DNA of 64,000 bases from Thermococcus gorgonarius (GCF_002214385.1 NZ_CP014855.1:1178001-1242000), one strand, 5' to 3'. Shown: positions 3,086 to 43,421, counted from the first letter of the stretch. Translations and numbers: made by a program. The notes: generated from the letters alone by a model not told the origin.

Positions 3086-4780
3086 ATGATAGATGTTGAA
3101 GGAGAGCAGATAGGTAAACAACACCCCCTTTTTGAGTACCTCCCTGAGTTACAGGGTATACTAAACAACAACAGTTTTCCGGTTTTGGTCTTTTATAGGC
3201 GGGTTAAGTCAAAGACTACGGAAGTATCACAAAGAATAGTCAAAGACGACACCAAGCAGCATGCTCTTGTTAACGTCTTACAAAAAATCCTCAGTAATGC
3301 TCATGAGATAAAGGAAATGGACACCCTTGATTTGACACCTAATAGAGAATTCTGGATAATCTCTCTATTAGATTCGTATCCCAACATTGACGTCACCCAT
3401 GCCCAGTTCCTGTTAAATGACTTTACCTTTAGTATGACTTCAAGGATGAGAGAAGAGGAGAAGTATGGAATCCTAATTATTTCCAAAGATATGGTCATGC
3501 TCTGCCATAGCAAATTTGGAGAAGTGACAATAACTCCTGATTTTGAAGTATTGCCTCGCATGTTAGACTCTGATAACATAATCAGATTTGTTGCATTTAT
3601 TAAAAAGAAAAATGGCAAAATTCATGTCAAATATCACGAAGATTATAAAACTAAATTCCTTATGGAATGGTTAGGAGTATCTAAAAAAGAGCTCTTCTCG
3701 TACATGGGAGGAAAATATAGATTTGAAAGTGAATTTGGTGGAATAAAAATAGCACTGGAATTTACAGAAGAGGATGTTTATAAATTAATTACTGGACGTT
3801 TCAAAGGAATATCTCTAAAAGATGGACAGTTAATGTTTGAATCTCCTATAGATGGAGTCCCTATAAACTTAATAAGAATCGGGAAAAAGCCCTATTCAGA
3901 TTTTGAAGAATTTAAACAGGATTTCCTGGTAGAATACTTCACTGTAGACAAAATTGTTCAGAAATACAAGGAACTCCTCAATTCTCATTATACAACCTCA
4001 GGATTATACCAAGCTTTTGACGACTTAAAAGAGGTCACAATTCTATCCCGAAAAAGCGGGAAAACTGAGAAAACAATCCCTAAGAGAATAGATAACCTTA
4101 TCCCAATTTTTGCAACAAGAAATAAAGTTGAGATTAAAGAGAACCTTCTAAAAAATATTGGGATGAAAGTCCTAAACGGGGAACATGTCCGGATATTCCA
4201 TGTTGGTGATGAGTTTTCCAGCAAACCCACTATTATAAAGTCCCTTGAAATATACAATACTCTAAGCATATCAGAGGCACTATCTGAAATAATATCTGCA
4301 ACTAATACATCAGAAACAGGTAGATCATACATTGATAAGCTACTACTTTATGTAGCACTAAAACTACTGGTATCAGAGAATCAGGACAAAAAACTCTCCT
4401 TTTTCTTAGATAGGCTTTCAGAGAAAATCCTGAGCTATATCCAAATATCCGAAACCAAAAAAGTACTGAGAAAAGAAGATGTAATAATCGAATACAAATC
4501 TCGTGAAGAACTAGATGGGAAAGATAAGGCTATAATTGATAGAGTATCCAAAGACTTGAAATCGAAACTAGAAAATGGCACCGTAGTAGTGTTTTATTTT
4601 GGATTTGATGAAAAATCAAGAAGTTTTGATCCAATTAGCATGGGTCGCATTAACGATAATCGCCTAAGAATTTGGGAGAACGGAGTAAAAACAAAGACCA
4701 AAGCAAGTAAAGTGTATTTCCATGCAATACCAAAAGAGGACTCAAGGAAAGGTATGGTATTAATGGTAGCAATCAAGTAG
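3086..4780 (+). CDS. Unrecognised 564-residue protein inside the type I R-M operon
   Basis: The gene sits between hsdM and hsdS with spacers of 13 and 10 bases, so it is almost surely part of the operon. GAGGTGGTG at 3071-3079 places the start at ATG 3086. I recognise no family. The product is soluble, without membrane segments or signal peptide. Residues 90-190 look like a compact alpha/beta domain (FIKKKNGKIHVKYHEDYKTK region), and a helical middle follows. A faint resemblance to DUF4868/KwaB-type defence proteins is only an impression. The DNA is clearly more AT-rich than hsdM and hsdR, which points to separate acquisition. Possible roles are a helper of restriction, an anti-anti-restriction factor, or an independent defence effector. 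Confidence 0.8.
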   Translation: MIDVEGEQIGKQHPLFEYLPELQGILNNNSFPVLVFYRRVKSKTTEVSQRIVKDDTKQHALVNVLQKILSNAHEIKEMDTLDLTPNREFWIISLLDSYPNIDVTHAQFLLNDFTFSMTSRMREEEKYGILIISKDMVMLCHSKFGEVTITPDFEVLPRMLDSDNIIRFVAFIKKKNGKIHVKYHEDYKTKFLMEWLGVSKKELFSYMGGKYRFESEFGGIKIALEFTEEDVYKLITGRFKGISLKDGQLMFESPIDGVPINLIRIGKKPYSDFEEFKQDFLVEYFTVDKIVQKYKELLNSHYTTSGLYQAFDDLKEVTILSRKSGKTEKTIPKRIDNLIPIFATRNKVEIKENLLKNIGMKVLNGEHVRIFHVGDEFSSKPTIIKSLEIYNTLSISEALSEIISATNTSETGRSYIDKLLLYVALKLLVSENQDKKLSFFLDRLSEKILSYIQISETKKVLRKEDVIIEYKSREELDGKDKAIIDRVSKDLKSKLENGTVVVFYFGFDEKSRSFDPISMGRINDNRLRIWENGVKTKTKASKVYFHAIPKEDSRKGMVLMVAIK

Positions 4781-4790
4781 GGTGAGTATT

Positions 4791-6005
4791 ATGCAAACAA
4801 AAAAGACTCCAATCGGCGAGATTCCTGAGGATTGGGAAATTACAAAGCTTGGAGAGGTCGTAGAGATTTACGATAATCTAAGGGTTCCACTTAGTGAAAT
4901 TGAAAGAGCAAATAGAAAAGGGCCTTACCCGTATTGTGGAGCAAATGGAGTCATCGATTACATCGATGAGTACATCTTTGATGGGGAATACATCCTCTTG
5001 GCTGAAGATGGTGGATATTATGGTTCCTTCGAATCCTCCGCATATATCATGACTGGAAAATTCTGGGTTAATAATCACGCCCACGTATTGAAAGCAAAAG
5101 AAGGAGTTGCTGATAACTGGTTTATCCTTTATGTTCTAAATTTTCTAGATTTAACCCCCTATGTAGTTGGTTCAACAAGAAAGAAACTTAATCAAAAGCA
5201 CATGAAACAAATTTTAATCCCCCTCCCACCCCTCTCCGAGCAGAGGAAAATCGCCGAGATACTGAGGACGATTGACGAGGCGATTGAAAAGACCGACTTA
5301 GCTATCGAGCGGACGGAGCGGCTCAAAAAGGGCCTTATGCAGAGGCTTTTGACCAGAGGGATCAGGCACGAGCGGTTCAAGAAGACCGAGCTGGGCGAGA
5401 TCCCGGAGGAGTGGCGGGTTGTTAGGTTGGGAGAAGTAGCTGAGATAAGGAGGGGTGCTTCACCTCGTCCAAAGGGAGACCCAAGATACTTTGGTGGAGA
5501 AATACCTTGGATAAAAATATCAGACATTTCTAAGTATAAAAAAGGATTGTACTTGATAAAAACAGAGGATACTGTTACAGAGGAAGGCAAAAGCAAAAGT
5601 GTGTACTGCACAGATGGAACTTTGATAGTCTCAAACAGTGGTACCATCGGAGAGCCAGCGATAATAAAAACTGGAAAAGGTGGCTGCATACATGACGGCT
5701 TTATAATGATAAACCCTCGTGATGGAGTAGATAAGATTTTCCTGTACTATTTCTTTGAAGCAAAAAAGGAAGAATTCCATGCAAAAGCCCAAAAAGGAAC
5801 TCAGGGGAATATGAATACAAAATTATGGAAAACAACAAAACTCCCCCTCCCACCCCTCTCCGAACAAAAGCAAATCGCCGAAATCCTCTCGACCGTTGAC
5901 AGGAAGCTCGAACTCCTGAGGCAGAGAAGGGAGAAGCTTGAGGGGATAAAGAGGGGCCTGATGAAGGACTTGCTGACCGGAAGGAGGAGGGTAAGAGTTG
6001 AGTAG
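4791..6005 (+). CDS. hsdS: Type I restriction-modification system, specificity subunit S
   Basis: HsdS chooses the bipartite recognition sequence. The 404-residue chain has the standard two-fold pattern. Target-recognition domain 1 begins at IGEIPEDWEITKLGEV, and a conserved helical spacer follows (LPPLSEQRKIAEIL, near 145-190). Domain 2 begins at ELGEIPEEWRVVRLGEV and is followed by a second spacer (LPPLSEQKQIAEIL, near 350-400). The recognition domains are AT-rich while the spacers are GC-rich, the usual mosaic left by domain swapping. The start at ATG 4791 has GGTGA five bases upstream. The last eight bases overlap the next gene. It should work with the upstream hsdM and the distal hsdR. 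Confidence 0.95.
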   Translation: MQTKKTPIGEIPEDWEITKLGEVVEIYDNLRVPLSEIERANRKGPYPYCGANGVIDYIDEYIFDGEYILLAEDGGYYGSFESSAYIMTGKFWVNNHAHVLKAKEGVADNWFILYVLNFLDLTPYVVGSTRKKLNQKHMKQILIPLPPLSEQRKIAEILRTIDEAIEKTDLAIERTERLKKGLMQRLLTRGIRHERFKKTELGEIPEEWRVVRLGEVAEIRRGASPRPKGDPRYFGGEIPWIKISDISKYKKGLYLIKTEDTVTEEGKSKSVYCTDGTLIVSNSGTIGEPAIIKTGKGGCIHDGFIMINPRDGVDKIFLYYFFEAKKEEFHAKAQKGTQGNMNTKLWKTTKLPLPPLSEQKQIAEILSTVDRKLELLRQRREKLEGIKRGLMKDLLTGRRRVRVE

Positions 6006-6324
6006 CGCGCTTCAAAAATTACGGGAATTCGTCGAATACGTTGAAAAGAAGGCCAAAGAAGCCCCTTATGGCCTTGACCCTCAGGAGGTTACTTTGATTT
6101 GGCTAAACTTTGAGCAGTTAAAGGCGCTTGCCGAGAATGATATGAATGACATAAACATTTCTGATTTAATTTCCCTCGAAGCTAAATTTAACACAATCCT
6201 AGCTGAGGCCCAGAGTAGGTTTAAAATTCATAAAAAGCAAGTTGAATGCAGGTGGTTAAAATACCTATGTGCCCTCCTCATCGGTGGGGGCCTGCTGGGG
6301 CTGGTGATAAAACTGCTGGGTTAA
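5998..6324 (+). CDS. Small protein with C-terminal membrane anchor, in hsd operon
   Basis: This 108-residue product is helical and charged for its first 85 residues. It ends in one hydrophobic segment (LKYLCALLIGGGLLGLVIKL), typical of a tail-anchored protein facing the cytoplasm. The TTG start overlaps the hsdS stop (TTGAGTAG), and GGAGGAGG about eight bases upstream supports it, so translation is coupled to hsdS. I know no family. Its presence suggests that part of the restriction complex, or a sensor, is tied to the membrane, but this is inference. Confidence 0.7.
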   Translation: MSSALQKLREFVEYVEKKAKEAPYGLDPQEVTLIWLNFEQLKALAENDMNDINISDLISLEAKFNTILAEAQSRFKIHKKQVECRWLKYLCALLIGGGLLGLVIKLLG

Positions 6325-6421
6325 CGCCTGTTAACAGATTAACAACCAAGGAGTTAAAGGTCTTCTCCGTTAATCCATTAACCACAACCCTTTTATAGGG
6401 CTTTGATGTTAATCCGTTAAC
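6320..6421 (+). promoter_or_regulatory. Promoter with repeated GTTAAC-type sites before HEPN-MNT-hsdR
   Basis: GTTAATCCATTAAC at 6369-6382 and GTTAATCCGTTAAC at 6408-6421 are near-identical dyads that flank a TATA-like TTTTATA at 6391-6397. Upstream lie GTTAAC at 6320 and 6330 and ATTAAC near 6338. The gene start is at 6430. Sites on both sides of a TATA box are the usual layout for repression, and toxin-antitoxin pairs commonly repress themselves. If so, the same control would set the level of hsdR, which follows in the same transcript. Confidence 0.6.
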
Positions 6422-6429
6422 GTGATAGC

Positions 6430-6762
6430 ATGGGCAGGCTCGAAGACCTGAAGGCCAATGTGGAGGAATACTTCCAGAGCGCCGAGCTTTTATTCAAGCA
6501 AGGACTGAACAACGCGGCGTTTATGATGTACTTCAAGGCCCTCGTGGCGATAACCGATTACATACTCTGGCGCGACCTCAGGGTGTTGCCCGAGAACCAC
6601 AGAGAGAGGTTTAGAATCGTAAAACCCCGTTATCCGGAGCTTTACAACGTCTTGAGTTATTACTTCCCCTATTACCGCGACACCTACACGAAGAGGGTTG
6701 ACGACAGAGTTCTGGTGGCGATAAGGAATGACGTCATCAGGCTTAAGGAGAAAATTGAGTGA
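6430..6762 (+). CDS. HEPN domain protein (toxin-like partner of MNT)
   Basis: The 110-residue all-helical protein matches small HEPN proteins (AAFMMYFKALVAITDYIL helix, then LPENHRERF and a YR.TY helix). In HepT-MntA pairs the HEPN protein is an RNase or inhibitor target and its partner nucleotidyltransferase neutralises it by adding nucleotides. An R-x5-H stretch (RVLPENH) is visible, but it is not placed as in canonical HepT, so RNase activity is uncertain. The gene overlaps the nucleotidyltransferase by eight bases and follows its own promoter. It may therefore be a toxin module, or simply part of the restriction locus. Confidence 0.75.
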   Translation: MGRLEDLKANVEEYFQSAELLFKQGLNNAAFMMYFKALVAITDYILWRDLRVLPENHRERFRIVKPRYPELYNVLSYYFPYYRDTYTKRVDDRVLVAIRNDVIRLKEKIE

Positions 6763-7336
6763 ACTGGCAAGGGACTTTAAGGAGAAAAACCCGGACGTCT
6801 GGGATATCCTGCTCTACGGCTCCTCGGTTAAGGGTAAGGAGAGGCCAAACGACGTTGACATTGCGGTGATTCTAGAGGAGGGCGATCCCTTTAAGATGGC
6901 CTTCCACTTCAAAACTGCCCTTGAAGAGGCCGGCTTTTCTCCCGAGGAGCTTGACGTTAAGGGTTTCCTCCTCAAAGAGCTGTTCGACGAGAACAACCTC
7001 GTTAGCTTAGCCCTTCTCGTCGAGGGTTACTCCCTCCTTAAAGGCAGGTTCCTCTACGAAAGTCTAAACGCAAGGGGCTACACCCTCTTCAGGTTCTCGT
7101 ACTCATCCCTCCCCCAGAACGAGAAGGTTCGCTTTATCTACAGCCTCCGCGGAAGGAGGAAGGAGGGAGGAATACTCAAGAGGCTCAACGCCCTTGAGCT
7201 CGCTCCCGGGATTGTCCTCGTCCCGATCAGCGCCACCTTCGAGTTCGCGGAGTTCCTCAGGCGCTGGGGACTGGATTACGAACGTGCTCCCGTGCTGATG
7301 GGCGAGCTTACCGGGGTGGTGGTAGGGAATGAATGA
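6755..7336 (+). CDS. MNT-type nucleotidyltransferase (antitoxin-like partner of HEPN)
   Basis: Residues 18-38 hold the minimal nucleotidyltransferase signature, GSS at 22-24 followed by DVD at 33-35. The family transfers nucleotides to a partner protein or is an inactive relative. A C-terminal half of about 110 residues follows, longer than in typical MntA, without a family I can name. The TTG at 6755 overlaps the HEPN stop (TTGAGTGA) and has AAGGAG four bases upstream; an in-frame ATG at 6728 would overlap HEPN by 35 bases and has no clear site. The gene overlaps hsdR by eight bases, so HEPN, MNT and HsdR are translated as a coupled set. Confidence 0.8.
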   Translation: MSELARDFKEKNPDVWDILLYGSSVKGKERPNDVDIAVILEEGDPFKMAFHFKTALEEAGFSPEELDVKGFLLKELFDENNLVSLALLVEGYSLLKGRFLYESLNARGYTLFRFSYSSLPQNEKVRFIYSLRGRRKEGGILKRLNALELAPGIVLVPISATFEFAEFLRRWGLDYERAPVLMGELTGVVVGNE

Positions 7337-31243: not shown

Positions 31244-31734
<491 letters not shown>

Positions 31735-33186: not shown

Positions 33187-35627
33187 TCAAGCCCTTCTCA
33201 GGAACAAAAGGAGACCCAACGTGAGGAATATGGAGAGCAGGCTTAAGTAACGGAGGGGAACGAAGGGGTCTTCAAAGCTCAGCTCAAGCTCGTGCTCCCC
33301 AGCTGGGAGGTTCAGCTCGATGAGGCCAAACTCACTGTTCTTCTCCACCGAAATCTTCTTTCCGTCAACACTCGCCTCCCAGTGAGGGAAGTAGTTCTCG
33401 CTTACAATTACTTTCGAAGGTCTTTCAAGGCTGTACCTGAGCCTTATCCTCCCATCGCCGAGCTCAAGAACGGTGTAGTTCAGCTCTGGAACCCCGAGAT
33501 ATGGGGTGAGAAGCTCTTTCAGGATGGATTTCTCGTAGTCATTGCTGGTATAGATTGCATGGTATGGAAAGTTAAGACCGACAAAGTAGACGCGCCCTTT
33601 GCCATAATCTTTATAGCCAAGAACCGTAAGGTCCCAAACTTAATGAGGGGCACTATACTCCCAGTATAAGCGGTGGCAGTCCAGGGCTGGCCCTCGTACT
33701 GGAACTCGGAGAACTTCGAGGTGTTGAAGAAAGTTGAACTGAGGTTGGCCCTCCCTTGAACCTTTACTATTAGAGACCTCACCCCCATGCGCTCCGCCTC
33801 TGCATCCGGGCTTCTGAAGGTGTTGACGACCAGAATACCACCGTTCTTAACGTACTCCTGAAGGTCGAACCATGCTCCAACGTCCCTGTACTTGTAGCCG
33901 TTCAGGATGACAAGAGAGTAACTGGAGAGCTCTTTAGCGTAATCGTCCACAAAGCTTCCGCGTTCGTAGGGAACTTCAAGGTCAATCGGCCAGTCGCCGA
34001 TAACGAGGATACCAGTCTTGGGCTGGAGGAAGGTGAAGTTGCTCCAGCGGTAGAGGTGGAAGGGGCCGGAGAAGTATACCTCCTCAAAGCCAAAGCTTCT
34101 GAGGTTCCTTGTTATGTCCCCGTAACCCCTATAGTTTTCATCCGTTATAACGTACTTCACAGAGTATATCCTGAGGGCTTTCTCAGCGAACCCTGGATCC
34201 TTTTCCATAGCGTAGTTCAGGTAAGAGTGCTGGGGATAAGCAGGATCGCCCTGTCTGTACCATCCGTCTAAAGAGGGCTTTCCCGCGAGGGCCGGCGTAT
34301 AAGCAACCCTGCAACCATGGGTTATCGCAACGGCCGGCTGATAAAACCTCCAGCCGGTCGAGTTGTCGTTCTTAATGTAATTCAGAACGGCCAGGTAATC
34401 TCCGGGAAAGTCCTCGGAATTTAATGAGTTAACCTGAAGTCTAACGTCTGAAAGGGGGAGGACAAGGAAGAACACGAGGAGAATTCCAGCAACTGCCTTT
34501 CTTTTTTCACCGTTCCCGATTTTTTGAGTGATAAGCCCACTGGGAACTTCAAAGAGAGCACCGACGCCGATTGCCGAAGCGAAGGGAACAAAGTCTATCC
34601 ACCTCCAGGGGGGTATCATGTCTAGGAGGGGAAGCCTGTTGAGGAAGGGAGTTGGGCCGTAGTAGCCAAGAGAAAGCAATATAGCCGTGAGAGAAGCCCC
34701 GAGAAGGCCCGCCCCAAGAAGTCTCTCTGGCTTCTCCTTTTTCACTAAAAGGACTACAATCCCTATGATCCCCATATAGAAAGCCAGCCCCTGGTAAAAG
34801 GACCAAGGATCCGAATGGATCAGTATATTCGAGAATTTTATACTCTGGAATTTAAATAGATATTCAATTCTGTTCTCCTTTAGGAAGTGGGCGTTGCCCT
34901 TCTCCAGCAAAAACGGAAGAACCCAGAAGGATGAAATGGAAAAGGCTGTAACACCGGCTATGAACAGGTTAAGGGCTATGTCTCTAATTTCATTCCTCCT
35001 CGTTATCCAGATGTAGGGGAGAAAAAACGTTACCATCAGCCCAAAGCTCACGAAAAGGGTGTGGTGAGCTAATCCCACAGCGGCCAGAAAGAGGCCCGAG
35101 AGCACGGCGTATCTCCAGTTTTTGCGGGTTATATAAAGTAACGCCAGAATGAAAAGGGGGGCAAGGTTGATTGCAAAGAACCTCGGAAAGTTCCCCTCAG
35201 GCGAGAGAACCCTTAGATGGTAGACTGAGAAGGCGTAGACGATTCCTGACAAGTAAGAAGAAGCATCGGAGAAGCCGAGCTCTTTGAGGAGAATCCTGGT
35301 GGACAGGGCACCCACCAGAATTGCCAGCAGGACGGTCAGTTTATAGCCCGTTATCGCGGATGAAGCTATTTTACCCAGGAGAGCACCAACAAAGTATGAG
35401 AGGGGCGGGTAAAACCTCAGGAAGGGGTAGCCGCTGTACCAGTCCTCAATCCATGAGGAGTAGCCCTGCATAAGCTTCCATATTTTGAAGAGGTGGCCGT
35501 AGGCGTCGCCTCCCCAGGAAGGAGGATAGCCCGAAGAGAGGAACCCCCTTAACACGAAGAGCGAGAAGAAGAAAACAGAGAGTATAAAGAGGGCCTCACG
35601 GATTTTAACGCTTCTGATTTCAACCAT
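33187..35627 (-). pseudogene. PTPS-related large membrane protein, one-base frameshift
   Basis: From ATG 35627 the frame reads about 13 membrane helices (DWYSGYPFLRFYPPLSYF early, typical of the PTPS-related/YfhO type) and then an extracellular domain. Near 33640 the frame breaks. One base earlier the sequence continues as KVWDLTVLGYKDYGKGRVY, then VSENYFPHWEASVDGKK and a final membrane helix LSIFLTLGLLLFLRRA, ending at a TGA at 33187-33189. Restoring one A in TTAAGTTTGG would join the two into about 813 residues. Such proteins are thought to act in surface glycan or lipid-sugar work. It may be a recent pseudogene or a sequence error. Confidence 0.8.
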
Positions 35628-35644
35628 CCCTCATCCCATCCCTT

Positions 35645-36385
35645 TCATCCGATTATTGAGGCGAGGTAGTCGAAGAGGGGTTCGAGGAACGGGAACTCGG
35701 GGACCTGAGTGTTATCGGTGACCTTTGCTCCACTTTTGCCGTCATCGGTACCAACAGGCTCCCATTCAAAGAAGTCATCCTGACCGTCTTCGAAGTCCTC
35801 AGTCTTCTCGCCTTGCGCGTAAGTGTAGACAACGTTGTCTAAGTATAGATCGAATTGTTTCCCTCCGCTGAATATTCCCCCGGCTTCAATAGAGCTTATG
35901 CTCTGGGGAGTGTTCTTAGATTGGCTATATACCAGTTGGCCGTCTATGTAATAAAGCAGGTTTTTAAGCTTGTTGTTATTCGGATTATAAACGACCTCGA
36001 TCCTGTATGTATGTGGAGACGAGCCATCGCTGGTGGTATATACCGGAGTACTGCCTGAGGGATCACTCGTGCCGGAGAAAATAGCCACCGTCCCGTTCTT
36101 CCAGAAGAATCCCCAAGCACGTCCATTGCTGTCCACAAGGGCCATAATAGCCACGTACTGCGTTCCCTGGGTATAGTTGAAGGCGTAAGCGTCCCACTGA
36201 ATGCTGAGGGGGTACTCGCTGGAGTTAACCTGCCGGTATACATAATAGGAACTGTCCAGGCTGTGATCCCACACGTGGAGCATTTGGCCACTCATTTCAG
36301 CACTGCTAACGTTTCCTAACCCCATGAGGACGAGCACGAGCGTTATGATAGGAACTGCAACCTTCACTCTCTCAACACCAACCAT
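35645..36385 (-). CDS. Secreted protein with VPEFP tail, next to archaeosortase
   Basis: The 246-residue chain has a signal peptide (residues 1-28), then a beta-rich domain of the concanavalin/LamG kind (VYRQVNSSEY to YLDNVVYTYAQ), an acidic linker and the tail TQVPEFPFLEPLFDYLASIIG. VPEFP matches the start of archaeal PEF-type sorting tails, but a long hydrophobic helix and basic end are missing. ATG 36385 follows GAGGTGA. The gene lies 120 bases downstream of the archaeosortase with its own TATA-like boxes. Good candidate for its substrate or a decayed one. Confidence 0.75.
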   Translation of the reverse strand: MVGVERVKVAVPIITLVLVLMGLGNVSSAEMSGQMLHVWDHSLDSSYYVYRQVNSSEYPLSIQWDAYAFNYTQGTQYVAIMALVDSNGRAWGFFWKNGTVAIFSGTSDPSGSTPVYTTSDGSSPHTYRIEVVYNPNNNKLKNLLYYIDGQLVYSQSKNTPQSISSIEAGGIFSGGKQFDLYLDNVVYTYAQGEKTEDFEDGQDDFFEWEPVGTDDGKSGAKVTDNTQVPEFPFLEPLFDYLASIIG

Positions 36386-36409
36386 ATCTCTCACCTCTAT
36401 TATTTATAC

Positions 36410-36470
36410 CTGGTTCGACTTTAAATAACCTTTAGTCAGACCTTCGAACAATTTATGCTGAGTCAACTTA
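36410..36470 (-). promoter_or_regulatory. Promoter region of the VPEFP-protein gene
   Basis: Read on the minus strand, AATTTATAAG near 36468 and TTATTTAAAG near 36422 are TATA-like elements in the AT-rich gap between the archaeosortase stop and the secreted-protein start. The second is about 40 bases from the start codon. This would let the secreted protein be made at a higher level than the enzyme. Confidence 0.4.
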
Positions 36471-36504
36471 TAAATTTCCCAAGGTCTTTTCATCTCGATC
36501 CAGT

Positions 36505-36993
36505 TCAATTTGGATGAAGGCTCTTCATAAACGCGTTCGCGAGGAGAAGGACAACCACCGTGAACATGAGAAGCGGCCCTATGGTGTAATGGAACAGCGA
36601 AAAAGCTCCTTCACCAAGGGTATAGTATAGGTATATGGCCAGAAAAATCCTGGCGAGGTTCAGGAGGTATATCGTGGATACTCCGAAGATGTATTCTCTG
36701 AAGTGCCTCCTGAGCTTCGGAATCACAGAGTAGACCACGGTATAAAGGGCTATGCTGAACATCCCGCTACACTGCCAGGTTATCTCGAAGGCTACCCTCT
36801 CACTGGGCAGATATATTATATTCCCCAGGAGGGTGTTCTGGATGCCGACGATGGAGAGGAGGCCGTGTATGTTGGACGCTTCCACCTTTATCAGAGGGCC
36901 TCCAAACTTGACGCCCAAAACCATGACAACAACGGTTGAAACTATGAGCGAGCCTATGAACATGACAAGCTCAGGTATCTTCGGCAACTTCAT
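36505..36993 (-). CDS. Archaeosortase/exosortase family protein
   Basis: The 162-residue membrane protein has about five helices and the full exosortase triad: Cys75 in TWQCSGMF, Arg115 in LLNLARIF, His135 in LFHYTIG. This family cleaves C-terminal sorting tails of exported proteins and joins them to a lipid or another acceptor in the membrane. The ATG at 36993 is chosen; an ATG at 37002 abuts GGGAGG too closely. It overlaps the upstream regulator gene by 23 bases. Subfamily (for example ArtE-like) cannot be set by eye. Confidence 0.9.
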   Translation of the reverse strand: MKLPKIPELVMFIGSLIVSTVVVMVLGVKFGGPLIKVEASNIHGLLSIVGIQNTLLGNIIYLPSERVAFEITWQCSGMFSIALYTVVYSVIPKLRRHFREYIFGVSTIYLLNLARIFLAIYLYYTLGEGAFSLFHYTIGPLLMFTVVVLLLANAFMKSLHPN

Positions 36994-38134
36994 CGCCTCC
37001 ATCCTCCCTTGGCTTTATGAGGCCGTACTCCTCAAGTATGCTCAGGTGGTAGTGGACGGTGGACTTGCTAAGCCCGAGAACCCTGGAGATTTCGCTGAGG
37101 GACTTCCCTCCCCTAATCATTTTCAAAATTTCCCTCCTGGTTCTGTTCTCGAGAAGGAACGCCTTTATTGCCTCTTTTCTTTTTCCTGCGGGATAAAAAA
37201 TATTTGTATTGCCCACCTCTGTCTCATCTACATAACCGGACCTCTTGAGTACCGAGAGGTGCCATCGGGCATTGGTTCTCGAAATTGAGAACGTTGAGAC
37301 GACGTCGTTTATGGTTGTGTATCCTTTTGCTTTTACGTACTCGTAGATGCCCTTTCTGACCTCGTTCTTAAGGACTTCCCTCGCGGGAAGCATGTAGGCA
37401 CCCAACGCCAGAATAAGGCCTATCAAAAACTCTCTGAGCCTCTGAACGTGGGGGTTGTTGGAGTTGAGAGCGTATGCAATCGCGCCCGCAGAAGCCAGCG
37501 CCCCAACTGCCACACCGGTCAGGGGGATGCCACCTTTGTAGTGCCTTATGATTGCCACAATGAACTCCGCAACTGCCGGGTTTCTTGTGTCAAGATAGAG
37601 GGCGCTCGGGTTTATGGAAACAATAACAAGCCTTCCCCTACCGACTCTTAGCTCGCTGACCACGGGGATATCCCCCGAGATAAGAACTGGCTTGGCCTTT
37701 CCATCAACGAGGGCTATGCCGTAGGTGTCCGAGTCGTAAGTGAAGGGGGTAAACTTCAGGTCATTGTTCGATGATATCTTAACCAGGCCTATCTCCGTGA
37801 AGTTCACGGTTAGGCCAAGTACTCCTAATATTCCCGGTTTATCACTTTCCAGTGTTCGAAGGGTGTTAAGCCCAACTATGAGGGTTTTTCCGGACTTTAC
37901 TTCCCTCAAAAGGCCCGATGCTCTTTCCCTCATGCTTTCGTTTAGGAATCCATAGTTGAGGTCGAGGGCAAGGATTATGTCACCGTCTCCGCCGAGGGCA
38001 ACTTTTTCCTTCTCGGAGATAGCCTCGTAGAGGGACATATCTCCCCGATCCGAGTAGAGGTAGATAGCCGTCGCAGTTACTGAAGGTAAAATAAGGGTGA
38101 GAATAAAGATTAAGGTGAGTAGCTTTCTTACCAT
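36971..38134 (-). CDS. Membrane-anchored regulator with two winged helices
   Basis: The 387-residue protein has a signal peptide, an extracytoplasmic domain (residues 20-190) that resembles a glutamine-amidotransferase-like fold in outline, two membrane helices (about 200-250) and a cytoplasmic part with two ArsR-like winged helices (SISRTNARWHLSVLKRSGYV and GLSKSTVHYHLSILEEYGLI). It could sense something outside the membrane and control genes directly. It lies between the glycosyltransferase and archaeosortase genes and overlaps both, so it may regulate this locus. Confidence 0.82.
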   Translation of the reverse strand: MVRKLLTLIFILTLILPSVTATAIYLYSDRGDMSLYEAISEKEKVALGGDGDIILALDLNYGFLNESMRERASGLLREVKSGKTLIVGLNTLRTLESDKPGILGVLGLTVNFTEIGLVKISSNNDLKFTPFTYDSDTYGIALVDGKAKPVLISGDIPVVSELRVGRGRLVIVSINPSALYLDTRNPAVAEFIVAIIRHYKGGIPLTGVAVGALASAGAIAYALNSNNPHVQRLREFLIGLILALGAYMLPAREVLKNEVRKGIYEYVKAKGYTTINDVVSTFSISRTNARWHLSVLKRSGYVDETEVGNTNIFYPAGKRKEAIKAFLLENRTRREILKMIRGGKSLSEISRVLGLSKSTVHYHLSILEEYGLIKPREDGGDEVAEDT

Positions 38135-39482
38135 CCCTGGACCACCCCCCTCATGTACCGGAAGATGGCATTGACTTTTATTATCGAGAGCAGGGGGTTA
38201 TAAAGCACATAGTAGAGAAAGACGGCCGGAAGGTACCTGAAAGCCTTGGCCAGACCATGCTCTATCGCCATTGCAATTGAGCTCATGAGAACCCCCGGAA
38301 GGTACTGGAGAGTAAAAACGAGGAAAAAGAGGAACGCCATCACATTAGGAGGTAAGGTGAAATCGAGTATCCTGACGTCGAAAACGTACTGTAGAAGAAC
38401 TATCGTAGGGAACGATATCATACCAAACACCTGTATAAAGGACAGCAGGTACTCCAGAAGTACAATGTGGGTGAAGAGGAAGAAGCCCTTCTCACCGTAT
38501 TTTCTGTTCAGTATCATGTCCCTATGCTTGGCAATAACCTGAAGGCCTCCATAGTACCACCGGAGCCTCTGCCTGTAGGTTCCCTCCAGCTGGTCTTGGA
38601 ATAGGTGTAGACAATGGCGTTTGGCTCGAAGACAGAGTCAAGTCCCGCCCTGTAAGCTATCATACCGAGGTCAAAATCCTCCGCCAGTGTGTCTTTTGGC
38701 ACCGAGGGGAGCCTCTTGAGGAAGTAGGACTTGAAAGCCGAGAAAGCTCCAGGCACAACGAGGAGCCAGCCGAGATAGGACTGAACCCTCCTGCCAACCT
38801 CAAAGGAATGGAGGAACTCTATCTCCTGAAACTTTTCCAGAAGGTGACCTTTTCTAGGAGCGATTCGAATTATGCCGGTTGATACTCCAATTTTAGGCTT
38901 CGTGTAGAGGCTTTCCACGAGATACCTCAGGGACGAGCCCGTGCCAAAGTACGAGTCTGCGTCCATTGTGACTATCACGTCGCCGGTGGCCGCTTTTATG
39001 CCATCCTCAAGGGCTTTTGCCTTCCCGAGGTTCGTCTCGTGGGAAATTACCTTAGCTCCCCAGGAGGAGGCTATTTCAGCCGTCGCATCGAGGCTTCCAT
39101 CGTCAACAACTATGACCTCAACGAGGTTGAAGGGGTAGTCCTGGTAGTATATGCTCTCAAGGAGACGCTCTATGTTTATTCCCTCGTTGTATGCGGGAAC
39201 AACTATGGAAACTTTGGGATAGAGGCGGGGATATTTCGTAGCCCCCTCAGAACTGCGGAAGTAAATGTAAAATATGAAGTATGCGGTGTAAACGAGTATT
39301 ATGAAAGCACCGGTAAAGTAGAAAAGGTACCTAACGAAAGAATACACTGGATAGTGCTCAATCCCCGGAAAAAGAAACCTTGAAGTTTCCCAGGCAACGT
39401 ACTGAAGCATGGTGTAGTCTAAGTAGACCAGATAACTGGAGATTATGAATGCCGAGAGGTAAGAGGCTATCTTTCTTCTCAT
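38128..39482 (-). pseudogene. Family 2 membrane glycosyltransferase, one-base frameshift
   Basis: From ATG 39482 the chain has two membrane helices, then a GT-A domain: VVPAYNEGINIERLLESIYY, VVDDGSLDAT, MDADS and EDFDLG, as in hyaluronan/cellulose-type synthases. Near 38580 the frame breaks just before the product-binding motif. The next frame reads TYRQRLRWYYGGLQVIAKHR and then four membrane helices to the stop at 38128. Restoring one A in GGGAACC joins them (about 451 residues). It overlaps the regulator genes on both sides. Either a fresh pseudogene or a sequence error. Confidence 0.85.
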
Positions 39483-40789
39483 ACTTCGAACCACCTGACT
39501 AAAGACTTGGTCGGGTAAACTTCGTAGTCAAAGGTTATCTTCCTGAGCTCCACGACACCGTAAGCAGAGAGGCGCTTCAACGTTTCAAGGACGTCGTAGG
39601 GAGGCATGTTAAGAGACCTTGCCAGGTCGAGAACCCTAATGCCCGGGTTCATGGTAACCTTTTCCATCAGCTTTGGATGTCTTCCAATCGCCCAAGCTGC
39701 CATTCCCTCTATCTCCTTTCCCCTCGGGGTTACGAGAACGTCCCTCTCCCCGAACTCAGAGAGGTCTATAATTTCCGCCTTCCTCGAAATCTTCAGCACG
39801 GCTATTGGAAATTTCAGGCGTTTTGGCTCAACACCTAGCTCCTCCGAGAGCTCGCTTAGGGTTGCCCCCACCAAGACTTTCAGGGCATCAGTGAGCTCTT
39901 CCTGAAGTTTTCGCGATATGTACCTTGAAATGGGAAACGTGAGTGCCGCTATAGTAAGGATGAGGCCCCATGGGAGATAGCCGAGATAGGCCATAACGAA
40001 CAGAAGGAGGAAAGCCGTGAGCCCTATAAAGATGGGATTTAAGGCCAGCCTTTTTACTTTTAATTCTATAATCTCTCCGGTGGAAAGCCTGGGCTTTGAG
40101 GCCCTGTCATCGAGTCCCTTAATTGCTATGTCCCTGTAAATTGCGGCATAGTTCTCATCCTGTTCAACAAAGGCTCTAACGGGGTTAAATGTCATTAGCA
40201 CACCGATGCCCCTGCCGTAGTGTGCTTCGGTAATGGCAGGCTCCCCCGTGCTGTAGCGTGCTATTACATCGGCTCTCACGGGCCTGACCACGATGATCTG
40301 GAAGCTTGAGTTGTAGGGGTAGAGCTCCCCGCTGTAGTTAATATAAACTTCATCTCCGGATGATTTAATTCTCAGAAGGCTAACCCCCAGGACTTCGTCA
40401 AACTTCCTATTCCAGTGTTGGACATATGTGTTAAGGCCAAGAACAAGAACACCACCAACCTCCACGTACTGTTCGAGGGCATCAATTTCATTTTGAGAGA
40501 GTCTCCCACCATACGTCCACTGGAGGTTCAAATCAGGTATCCAGACTTCATCGTATTGGGCGAGATACTCAAGGCTGGATAAAGGTGATCTGTCGTCAGG
40601 AAGGTCTTTTCCCAGGTAGATGATATCAACTGTAAAGTTGTTCCCCAGGGAGTTGGCCATCATAACGTCATCTACGTCACTGCATACTACAAGTATTCTC
40701 GCGGGGGAATAACCTGAAGCCGGAGAAGGAACTAGGAGCAGTAAACTGATTAATATGATAACTAGGGGGCTTACCCTTTTCATAGTCAT
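39479..40789 (-). CDS. Membrane-anchored regulator with extracytoplasmic domain
   Basis: The 436-residue protein has a signal peptide, an extracytoplasmic domain (25-250, [14 protein letters not shown] and [13 protein letters not shown], GATase-like in pattern), two membrane helices (about 260-300) and a cytoplasmic winged-helix-like tail ([24 protein letters not shown]). A TATA-like CATTATAAG about 30 bases upstream suggests a leaderless transcript starting at or near the ATG. It is the first gene of the archaeosortase locus and has the same layout as the regulator at 36971-38134. Confidence 0.8.
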
Positions 40790-40863
40790 AGTCTAAGTTG
40801 TATTTGTGCTCTTATAATGTTTAGCCACTCCCTCGAACGGCCGATAAATCCTTTAGCATTTAA

Positions 40864-41957: not shown

Positions 41958-43421
<1,464 letters not shown>

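Follow-up and report, generated by a model that had tools for sequence, protein, structure and literature searches.

We have found that ArtF, an archaeosortase encoded on the 64,000-nucleotide stretch of Thermococcus gorgonarius DNA analysed here (the window), stands in an exclusive one-to-one pairing with the C-terminal tail of a single secreted protein, SEC, that the design of this tail is odd, and that the conserved cassette carrying both genes has a shared promoter element. We propose with moderate confidence that the locus as a whole is a self-regulated surface-polysaccharide cassette equipped with its own archaeosortase. A more specific proposal, which we put forward tentatively, is that ArtF may be dedicated to a signal of new design (VPEFPFL and a surface-lying amphipathic helix, with neither a membrane span nor a basic stop) on one lectin-fold substrate, within a regulon of two membrane-embedded regulators that would couple envelope state (the MscS channel gene included) to polysaccharide display.

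The ArtF cassette and its distribution

A first-pass annotation of the window had placed seven minus-strand open reading frames here, and we find each of them where it was placed (Table 1). It had recognised an archaeosortase with an intact Cys75-Arg115-His135 triad; that numbering starts from an internal ATG three codons downstream, and the same residues, Cys78, Arg118 and His138 in our frame, are invariant in an alignment of nine sequences. The TIGRFAM classification that it had proposed assigns the enzyme to ArtF (TIGR04293), whose family length it shares, and the general exosortase/archaeosortase signature TIGR04178 is also matched (49.6 against a cut-off of 23). ArtF is a predicted peptidase or transpeptidase. 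The secreted protein with a VPEFP tail is SEC, and the glycan-type membrane protein belongs to PF10131 (E 1.5e-61 in the window, 6.2e-67 in an intact relative), with the correction that its frame is shifted in the window. The processive glycosyltransferase holds as to family, since GT2 is nearest to PgaC/IcaA and next to the XrtG-associated glycosyltransferase, but not as to an intact gene, which a one-nucleotide deletion splits.

Table 1. Features of the cassette and its regulon (window positions unless another locus is named)
Feature	Position	Strand	Remarks
PF10131 (PTPS_related) membrane protein, presumed GT-C-type glycosyltransferase	33187..35627	-	frame split: ORF 33519-35627 plus remainder to 33187
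SEC, secreted lectin-fold protein, presumed ArtF substrate	35645..36394	-	249 aa; signal segment, jelly roll, C-terminal helix
SEC C-terminal tail VPEFPFLEPLFDYLASIIG	35648..35704	-	invariant VPEFPFL, then amphipathic helix; no transmembrane segment, no basic cluster
Regulatory element and TATA-like box upstream of SEC	36420..36450	-	TGTTCGAAGGTCTGACTAAAGGTTATTTAAA; kept in 9/9 cassettes
ArtF-family archaeosortase	36505..37002	-	165 aa; catalytic C78/R118/H138; TIGR04293 E 8.7e-57, 191.8 bits (cut-off 150)
REG2, membrane-anchored regulator	36971..38134	-	ectodomain, transmembrane segment, two winged HTH domains; HTH_20 E 1e-20, two stretches
GT2 polysaccharide synthase (PgaC/IcaA-like)	38128..39494	-	split into 38514-39494 and 38128-38517
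REG1, membrane-anchored regulator	39479..40789	-	GH42-B/GATase1-like ectodomain, transmembrane segment, winged HTH; PF08532 E 6.5e-8
Second element copy, 22 nt upstream of REG1	40810..40839	-	weight-matrix score 23.2
ODP trio loci	L017:7725-9625, L021:5266-7172, L171, L182		behind ArtF regulon element

ArtF is present in 9 of 94 Thermococcales genomes, and the gene order REG1-GT2-REG2-ArtF-SEC-PF10131 is common to all nine, although the PF10131 frame was not detected in the part of G019 examined; because the order is shared in this way, the arrangement is not due to chance. Three extra genes lie between ArtF and SEC in G072 and G026, and G076 and G081 each have a single locus with REG1 and GT2 but without ArtF. 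Beyond the Thermococcales, a search of 115 genomes of the phylum, at E 1e-8, gave no match to ArtF, a scan of GTDB contigs returned only Thermococcus and Thermococcales bins, and solved structures gave no convincing relative by sequence. The literature and profile libraries that we searched held no substrate, cassette, promoter element or biochemistry for ArtF, though an earlier statement on ArtF targets is possible (Haft 2012). Between the pair formed by the window and G072 and the group of G081, G067, G080 and G026, identity is 46-52% for ArtF and 67-79% for PF10131. The genes upstream are more divergent than PF10131, which argues for exchange between ArtF and SEC and suggests that the cassette is a mosaic.

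Both glycan genes are interrupted in the window. One-nucleotide deletions break the GT2 frame near 38582, by comparison with relatives, and the PF10131 frame near 33634, by comparison with G072; in eight relatives GT2 and a small 129-aa frame of the window form one frame of 450-455 aa, and the PF10131 protein of relatives is likewise a single frame of about 810-830 aa. The deletions could stem from recent decay or from errors in sequencing. That the window cassette is in decay and has ceased to make polymer, with intact function in the relatives only, would fit these deletions, a truncated PurP-like fragment nearby and the small genome (1.67 Mb), but we consider it rather unlikely: both deletions adjoin runs of G, as is typical of sequencing error, GT2 retains 88% protein identity to that of G072, and no damage is seen in REG1, REG2, ArtF, SEC or either promoter element.

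We also note some features of the surroundings. The PurP-like fragment, at 31249-31725 beside an MFS transporter, matches PF06973, which we take to be the PurP C-terminal domain, and is apparently truncated and perhaps frameshifted. On the other side, guaB (41958-43415) adjoins the cassette, and G017 and G014 have SEC-like proteins with VPFF tails encoded near guaB (L092, L093), which suggests that the vicinity of guaB is a recurrent site for surface genes.

The SEC tail and its pairing with ArtF

Among the 94 Thermococcales, strong matches to SEC are confined to the nine ArtF genomes, and every one of the nine cassettes encodes it. A profile built from the C-terminal 36 residues of SEC, run on the same 94 genomes, gives one strong match in each ArtF genome (E 1e-19 to 1e-23) and none in the other 85, where the best match has an E-value of 0.013. 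VPEFPFL is invariant in the nine proteins although their bodies fall to 26-38% identity, and the G026 protein has acquired a different body but retains the signal peptide (77% identical to that of the window) and the tail (80-95% within its group). Further proteins with the same tail, for which the first-pass annotation had advised a search, were sought in the genome by codon pattern and by profile, and just one further VPEFP codon string came to light, within an unrelated frame. Its suggestion of a one-enzyme, one-substrate system therefore stands as regards the single VPEFPFL tail in each ArtF genome and 0/85 others, but has to accommodate a tail that is noncanonical. The nine sequences, on which the profile alignments rest, are related, so that the co-occurrence counts are not independent events; with that reading of the numbers, the pairing of ArtF and SEC is well supported by the genome comparisons.

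A further argument comes from weak relatives of SEC, which end in tripartite VPFF tails in G014, G017 and G048 and in a tripartite tail of the PIPG/APIP type in G087; these four genomes have a different archaeosortase. An SEC-like body thus appears to carry whichever tail type goes with the archaeosortase of the genome it is in, and of the indirect arguments for assigning VPEFPFL to ArtF this is the strongest. We think it very unlikely that ArtF is a broad sorting enzyme which acts on other substrates with unlike tails and whose pairing with SEC is mere neighbourhood. The characterised archaeosortase ArtA does have several substrates (PMC7157517), and weak tail variants could escape both the profile and the codon search, but a second tail of the SEC kind is absent from the 94 genomes, and VPFF tails are absent where ArtF is the only archaeosortase, as we find it to be in G032, G080 and G081.

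Known exosortase and archaeosortase signals include a membrane-spanning helix and a basic cluster after the motif (PMC1569441, PMC7157517). The SEC tail has the short signature motif near the C-terminus, in the form of the VPEFPFL common to all nine proteins, but differs in what follows: a part of about 14 residues with its charges on one face and a hydrophobic moment of 0.59-0.71, a value equalled by at most 0.9% of shuffles. No transmembrane helix follows the motif (the best 15-residue Kyte-Doolittle value is 0.8-1.2, against 1.9-2.9 in tripartite control tails, which combine high hydrophobicity with a low moment), and the three tails tested have no basic cluster at their end (0-1 basic residues in the last eight). 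AlphaFold predicts a helix for residues 237-248, a part of the model whose confidence is low (blocks of 56-59). Without two of the three features of known signals, the tail might not be acted on by ArtF, and because it fails the definition of such signals, cleavage of SEC is something that we infer.

It is therefore worth considering that the tail is a docking element and not a cleavage signal, its helix keeping SEC at the membrane or in contact with ArtF, GT2 or the PF10131 protein, with ArtF acting elsewhere, for instance on the end of the PF10131 protein or on a lipid-linked glycan. The strong amphipathicity of the tail and its want of a transmembrane segment would fit, and PF10131 proteins do finish with an ectodomain, a transmembrane segment and basic residues; a terminal transmembrane segment behind an ectodomain is, however, ordinary for membrane proteins of this kind. 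Since VPEFP is invariant and resembles known sorting motifs, and since SEC-like bodies elsewhere have archaeosortase-type tails, we regard docking as unlikely and prefer to read the tail as a signal for ArtF.

The body of SEC is predicted to be a jelly roll of the LamG/concanavalin type (pLDDT 79.8), the best structural match (Z 14.3) being to a region of a neuraminidase, followed closely by beta-glucanases and laminin G; sharing this fold is no proof that SEC binds sugar. SEC does not belong to a known CTERM family, PEF-CTERM included, since it matches no NCBIfam family at E 1 and no Pfam family above cut-off.

A shared promoter element and two membrane-anchored regulators

Alignment of upstream DNA revealed a conserved element, CGTTCGAAGnnCTGrCTAAnnATnTTATAAA, before SEC in 9/9 cassettes. 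With two mismatches allowed it is found in all nine ArtF genomes and in 1 of 85 others, and a reversed control pattern gave four matches in all. A relaxed scan together with flank alignment places the element before REG1 in three genomes (that of the window, G072 and G015). It also precedes an MscS channel gene (PF00924/PF21082) in six genomes; in G019, G032, G067, G080 and G026 this gene leads the cassette, and in the window's own genome it is unlinked to the cassette (C1:808413) and retains the element. A weight matrix trained on the SEC sites only scores the REG1 site of the window as listed in Table 1 and the MscS site of the same genome at 25.2, against best scores of 14-16 in shuffled 64-kb sequence. 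The element further precedes a trio of genes, one of which encodes an ODP-family metallo-beta-lactamase protein. Two genomes, G072 and G026, have this trio within the cassette; G015 and G032 have it far away, there too behind a copy of the element, which in G032 is weak. We also note a weak copy (L179:1507-1530; 13.1, the level of shuffled sequence) before a gene for a 163-aa protein in G019.

The two membrane regulators of the first-pass annotation are recovered, each with a hydrophobic segment at the N-terminus, then an ectodomain and a membrane span, and winged HTH domains at the C-terminus. REG1 is homologous to REG2 (E 3.5e-7); the fold of its ectodomain matches a GH42 beta-galactosidase domain (E 1.9e-9; B domain, GATase1-like; model mean pLDDT 72), and REG2 weakly matches the ectodomain of PF10131. 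The built-in sensing that had been suggested for the locus gains support from these regulators and from the shared element, with a ligand side that we can only infer. REG2, or REG1 together with REG2, probably binds the element, with REG2 the likeliest, because a locus in G076 that has REG1, GT2 and MscS, with no REG2, ArtF or SEC there, is without the element (best score 11.8). Binding by REG1 as sole factor is made less likely by the same locus, whose REG1 is, it should be said, only 48% identical. A role in defence was considered and set aside, since what PADLOC matches in the regulators is no more than their generic HTH regions.

A proposed mechanism and its relation to known systems

We envisage that GT2, judging from its family, would make and extrude a polysaccharide, and that SEC would be exported by way of its signal peptide, its amphipathic VPEFPFL tail coming to rest in or on the outer leaflet of the membrane. 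ArtF might then cut SEC in or near VPEFP through its Cys, Arg and His residues and transfer it to a lipid or glycan acceptor, so that anchored SEC could be dedicated to anchoring or organising the polymer, to which the PF10131 protein may add sugars outside. REG1 and REG2 would read the state of the envelope or glycan through their sugar-enzyme-like ectodomains and act on the shared element, through which they would govern the REG1 and SEC operons together with the MscS channel gene.

A close parallel is the XrtG/Firmicu-CTERM system of Bacillota, in which a small exosortase likewise stands beside a GT2 and one small secreted substrate (PMC12854382), as in the core of the Aneurinibacillus XrtG locus. 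XrtG is the only match to ArtF among 72,556 plasmid records, its triad aligns, and ArtF is nearer to XrtG (E 8e-11) than to the second archaeosortase of its own genome (6e-4). Nevertheless, ArtF scores 36 against a TIGR03110 cut-off of 102.75, the cassette GT2 of an intact relative scores 111.9 against 363.95 for TIGR03111, and the XrtG substrate, unlike SEC, has a transmembrane segment and a basic tail. No homology was found between SEC and the Aneurinibacillus substrate, and the shared "PTPS" name is no link, the XrtG neighbour being a PTPS-fold protein (PF01242) unrelated to PF10131. By the cut-offs, then, the cassette is not an XrtG system, and its layout is similar and parallel to theirs. 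ArtA of Haloferax volcanii, which acts on PGF-CTERM proteins, resembles ArtF in its presumed mechanism, in which Cys attacks a C-terminal motif and the protein is passed on to lipid, but has diverse substrates with a motif, a hydrophobic domain and positively charged residues (PMC7157517). PEP-CTERM/EpsH systems are similarly tied to polysaccharide genes and have a conserved promoter element before substrate genes, whereas their tripartite tail usually occurs in many proteins and their element includes a sigma-54 motif (PMC1569441).

The second, distantly related archaeosortase of the window's genome (C1:1662227-1662496; L024:7174-7995, minus strand) passes the general TIGR04178 model only and falls in no named subfamily. 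Its neighbours (L024:2512-3450 and 3535-7209) end in tripartite VPFF tails, such tails occur in most Thermococcus genomes with this enzyme, and the two are apparently an undescribed enzyme/tail pair. Small ArtE-like archaeosortases, below the named cut-offs, also lie beside single proteins with tripartite tails of the APIP/APL type in G087, G090 and G060 (L156:6926-7913, L158:6704-8547, L157:6792-7877).

ArtA is the only archaeosortase described as experimentally studied in the literature that we found. From the cassette, ArtF gains one candidate substrate with a non-standard recognition tail, as well as a defined regulon, and with one enzyme and one substrate the signal that an archaeosortase needs therefore becomes testable. 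The cassette also suggests that archaea and Bacillota share a unit in which a small exosortase and a GT2 synthase are joined by a single dedicated surface protein.
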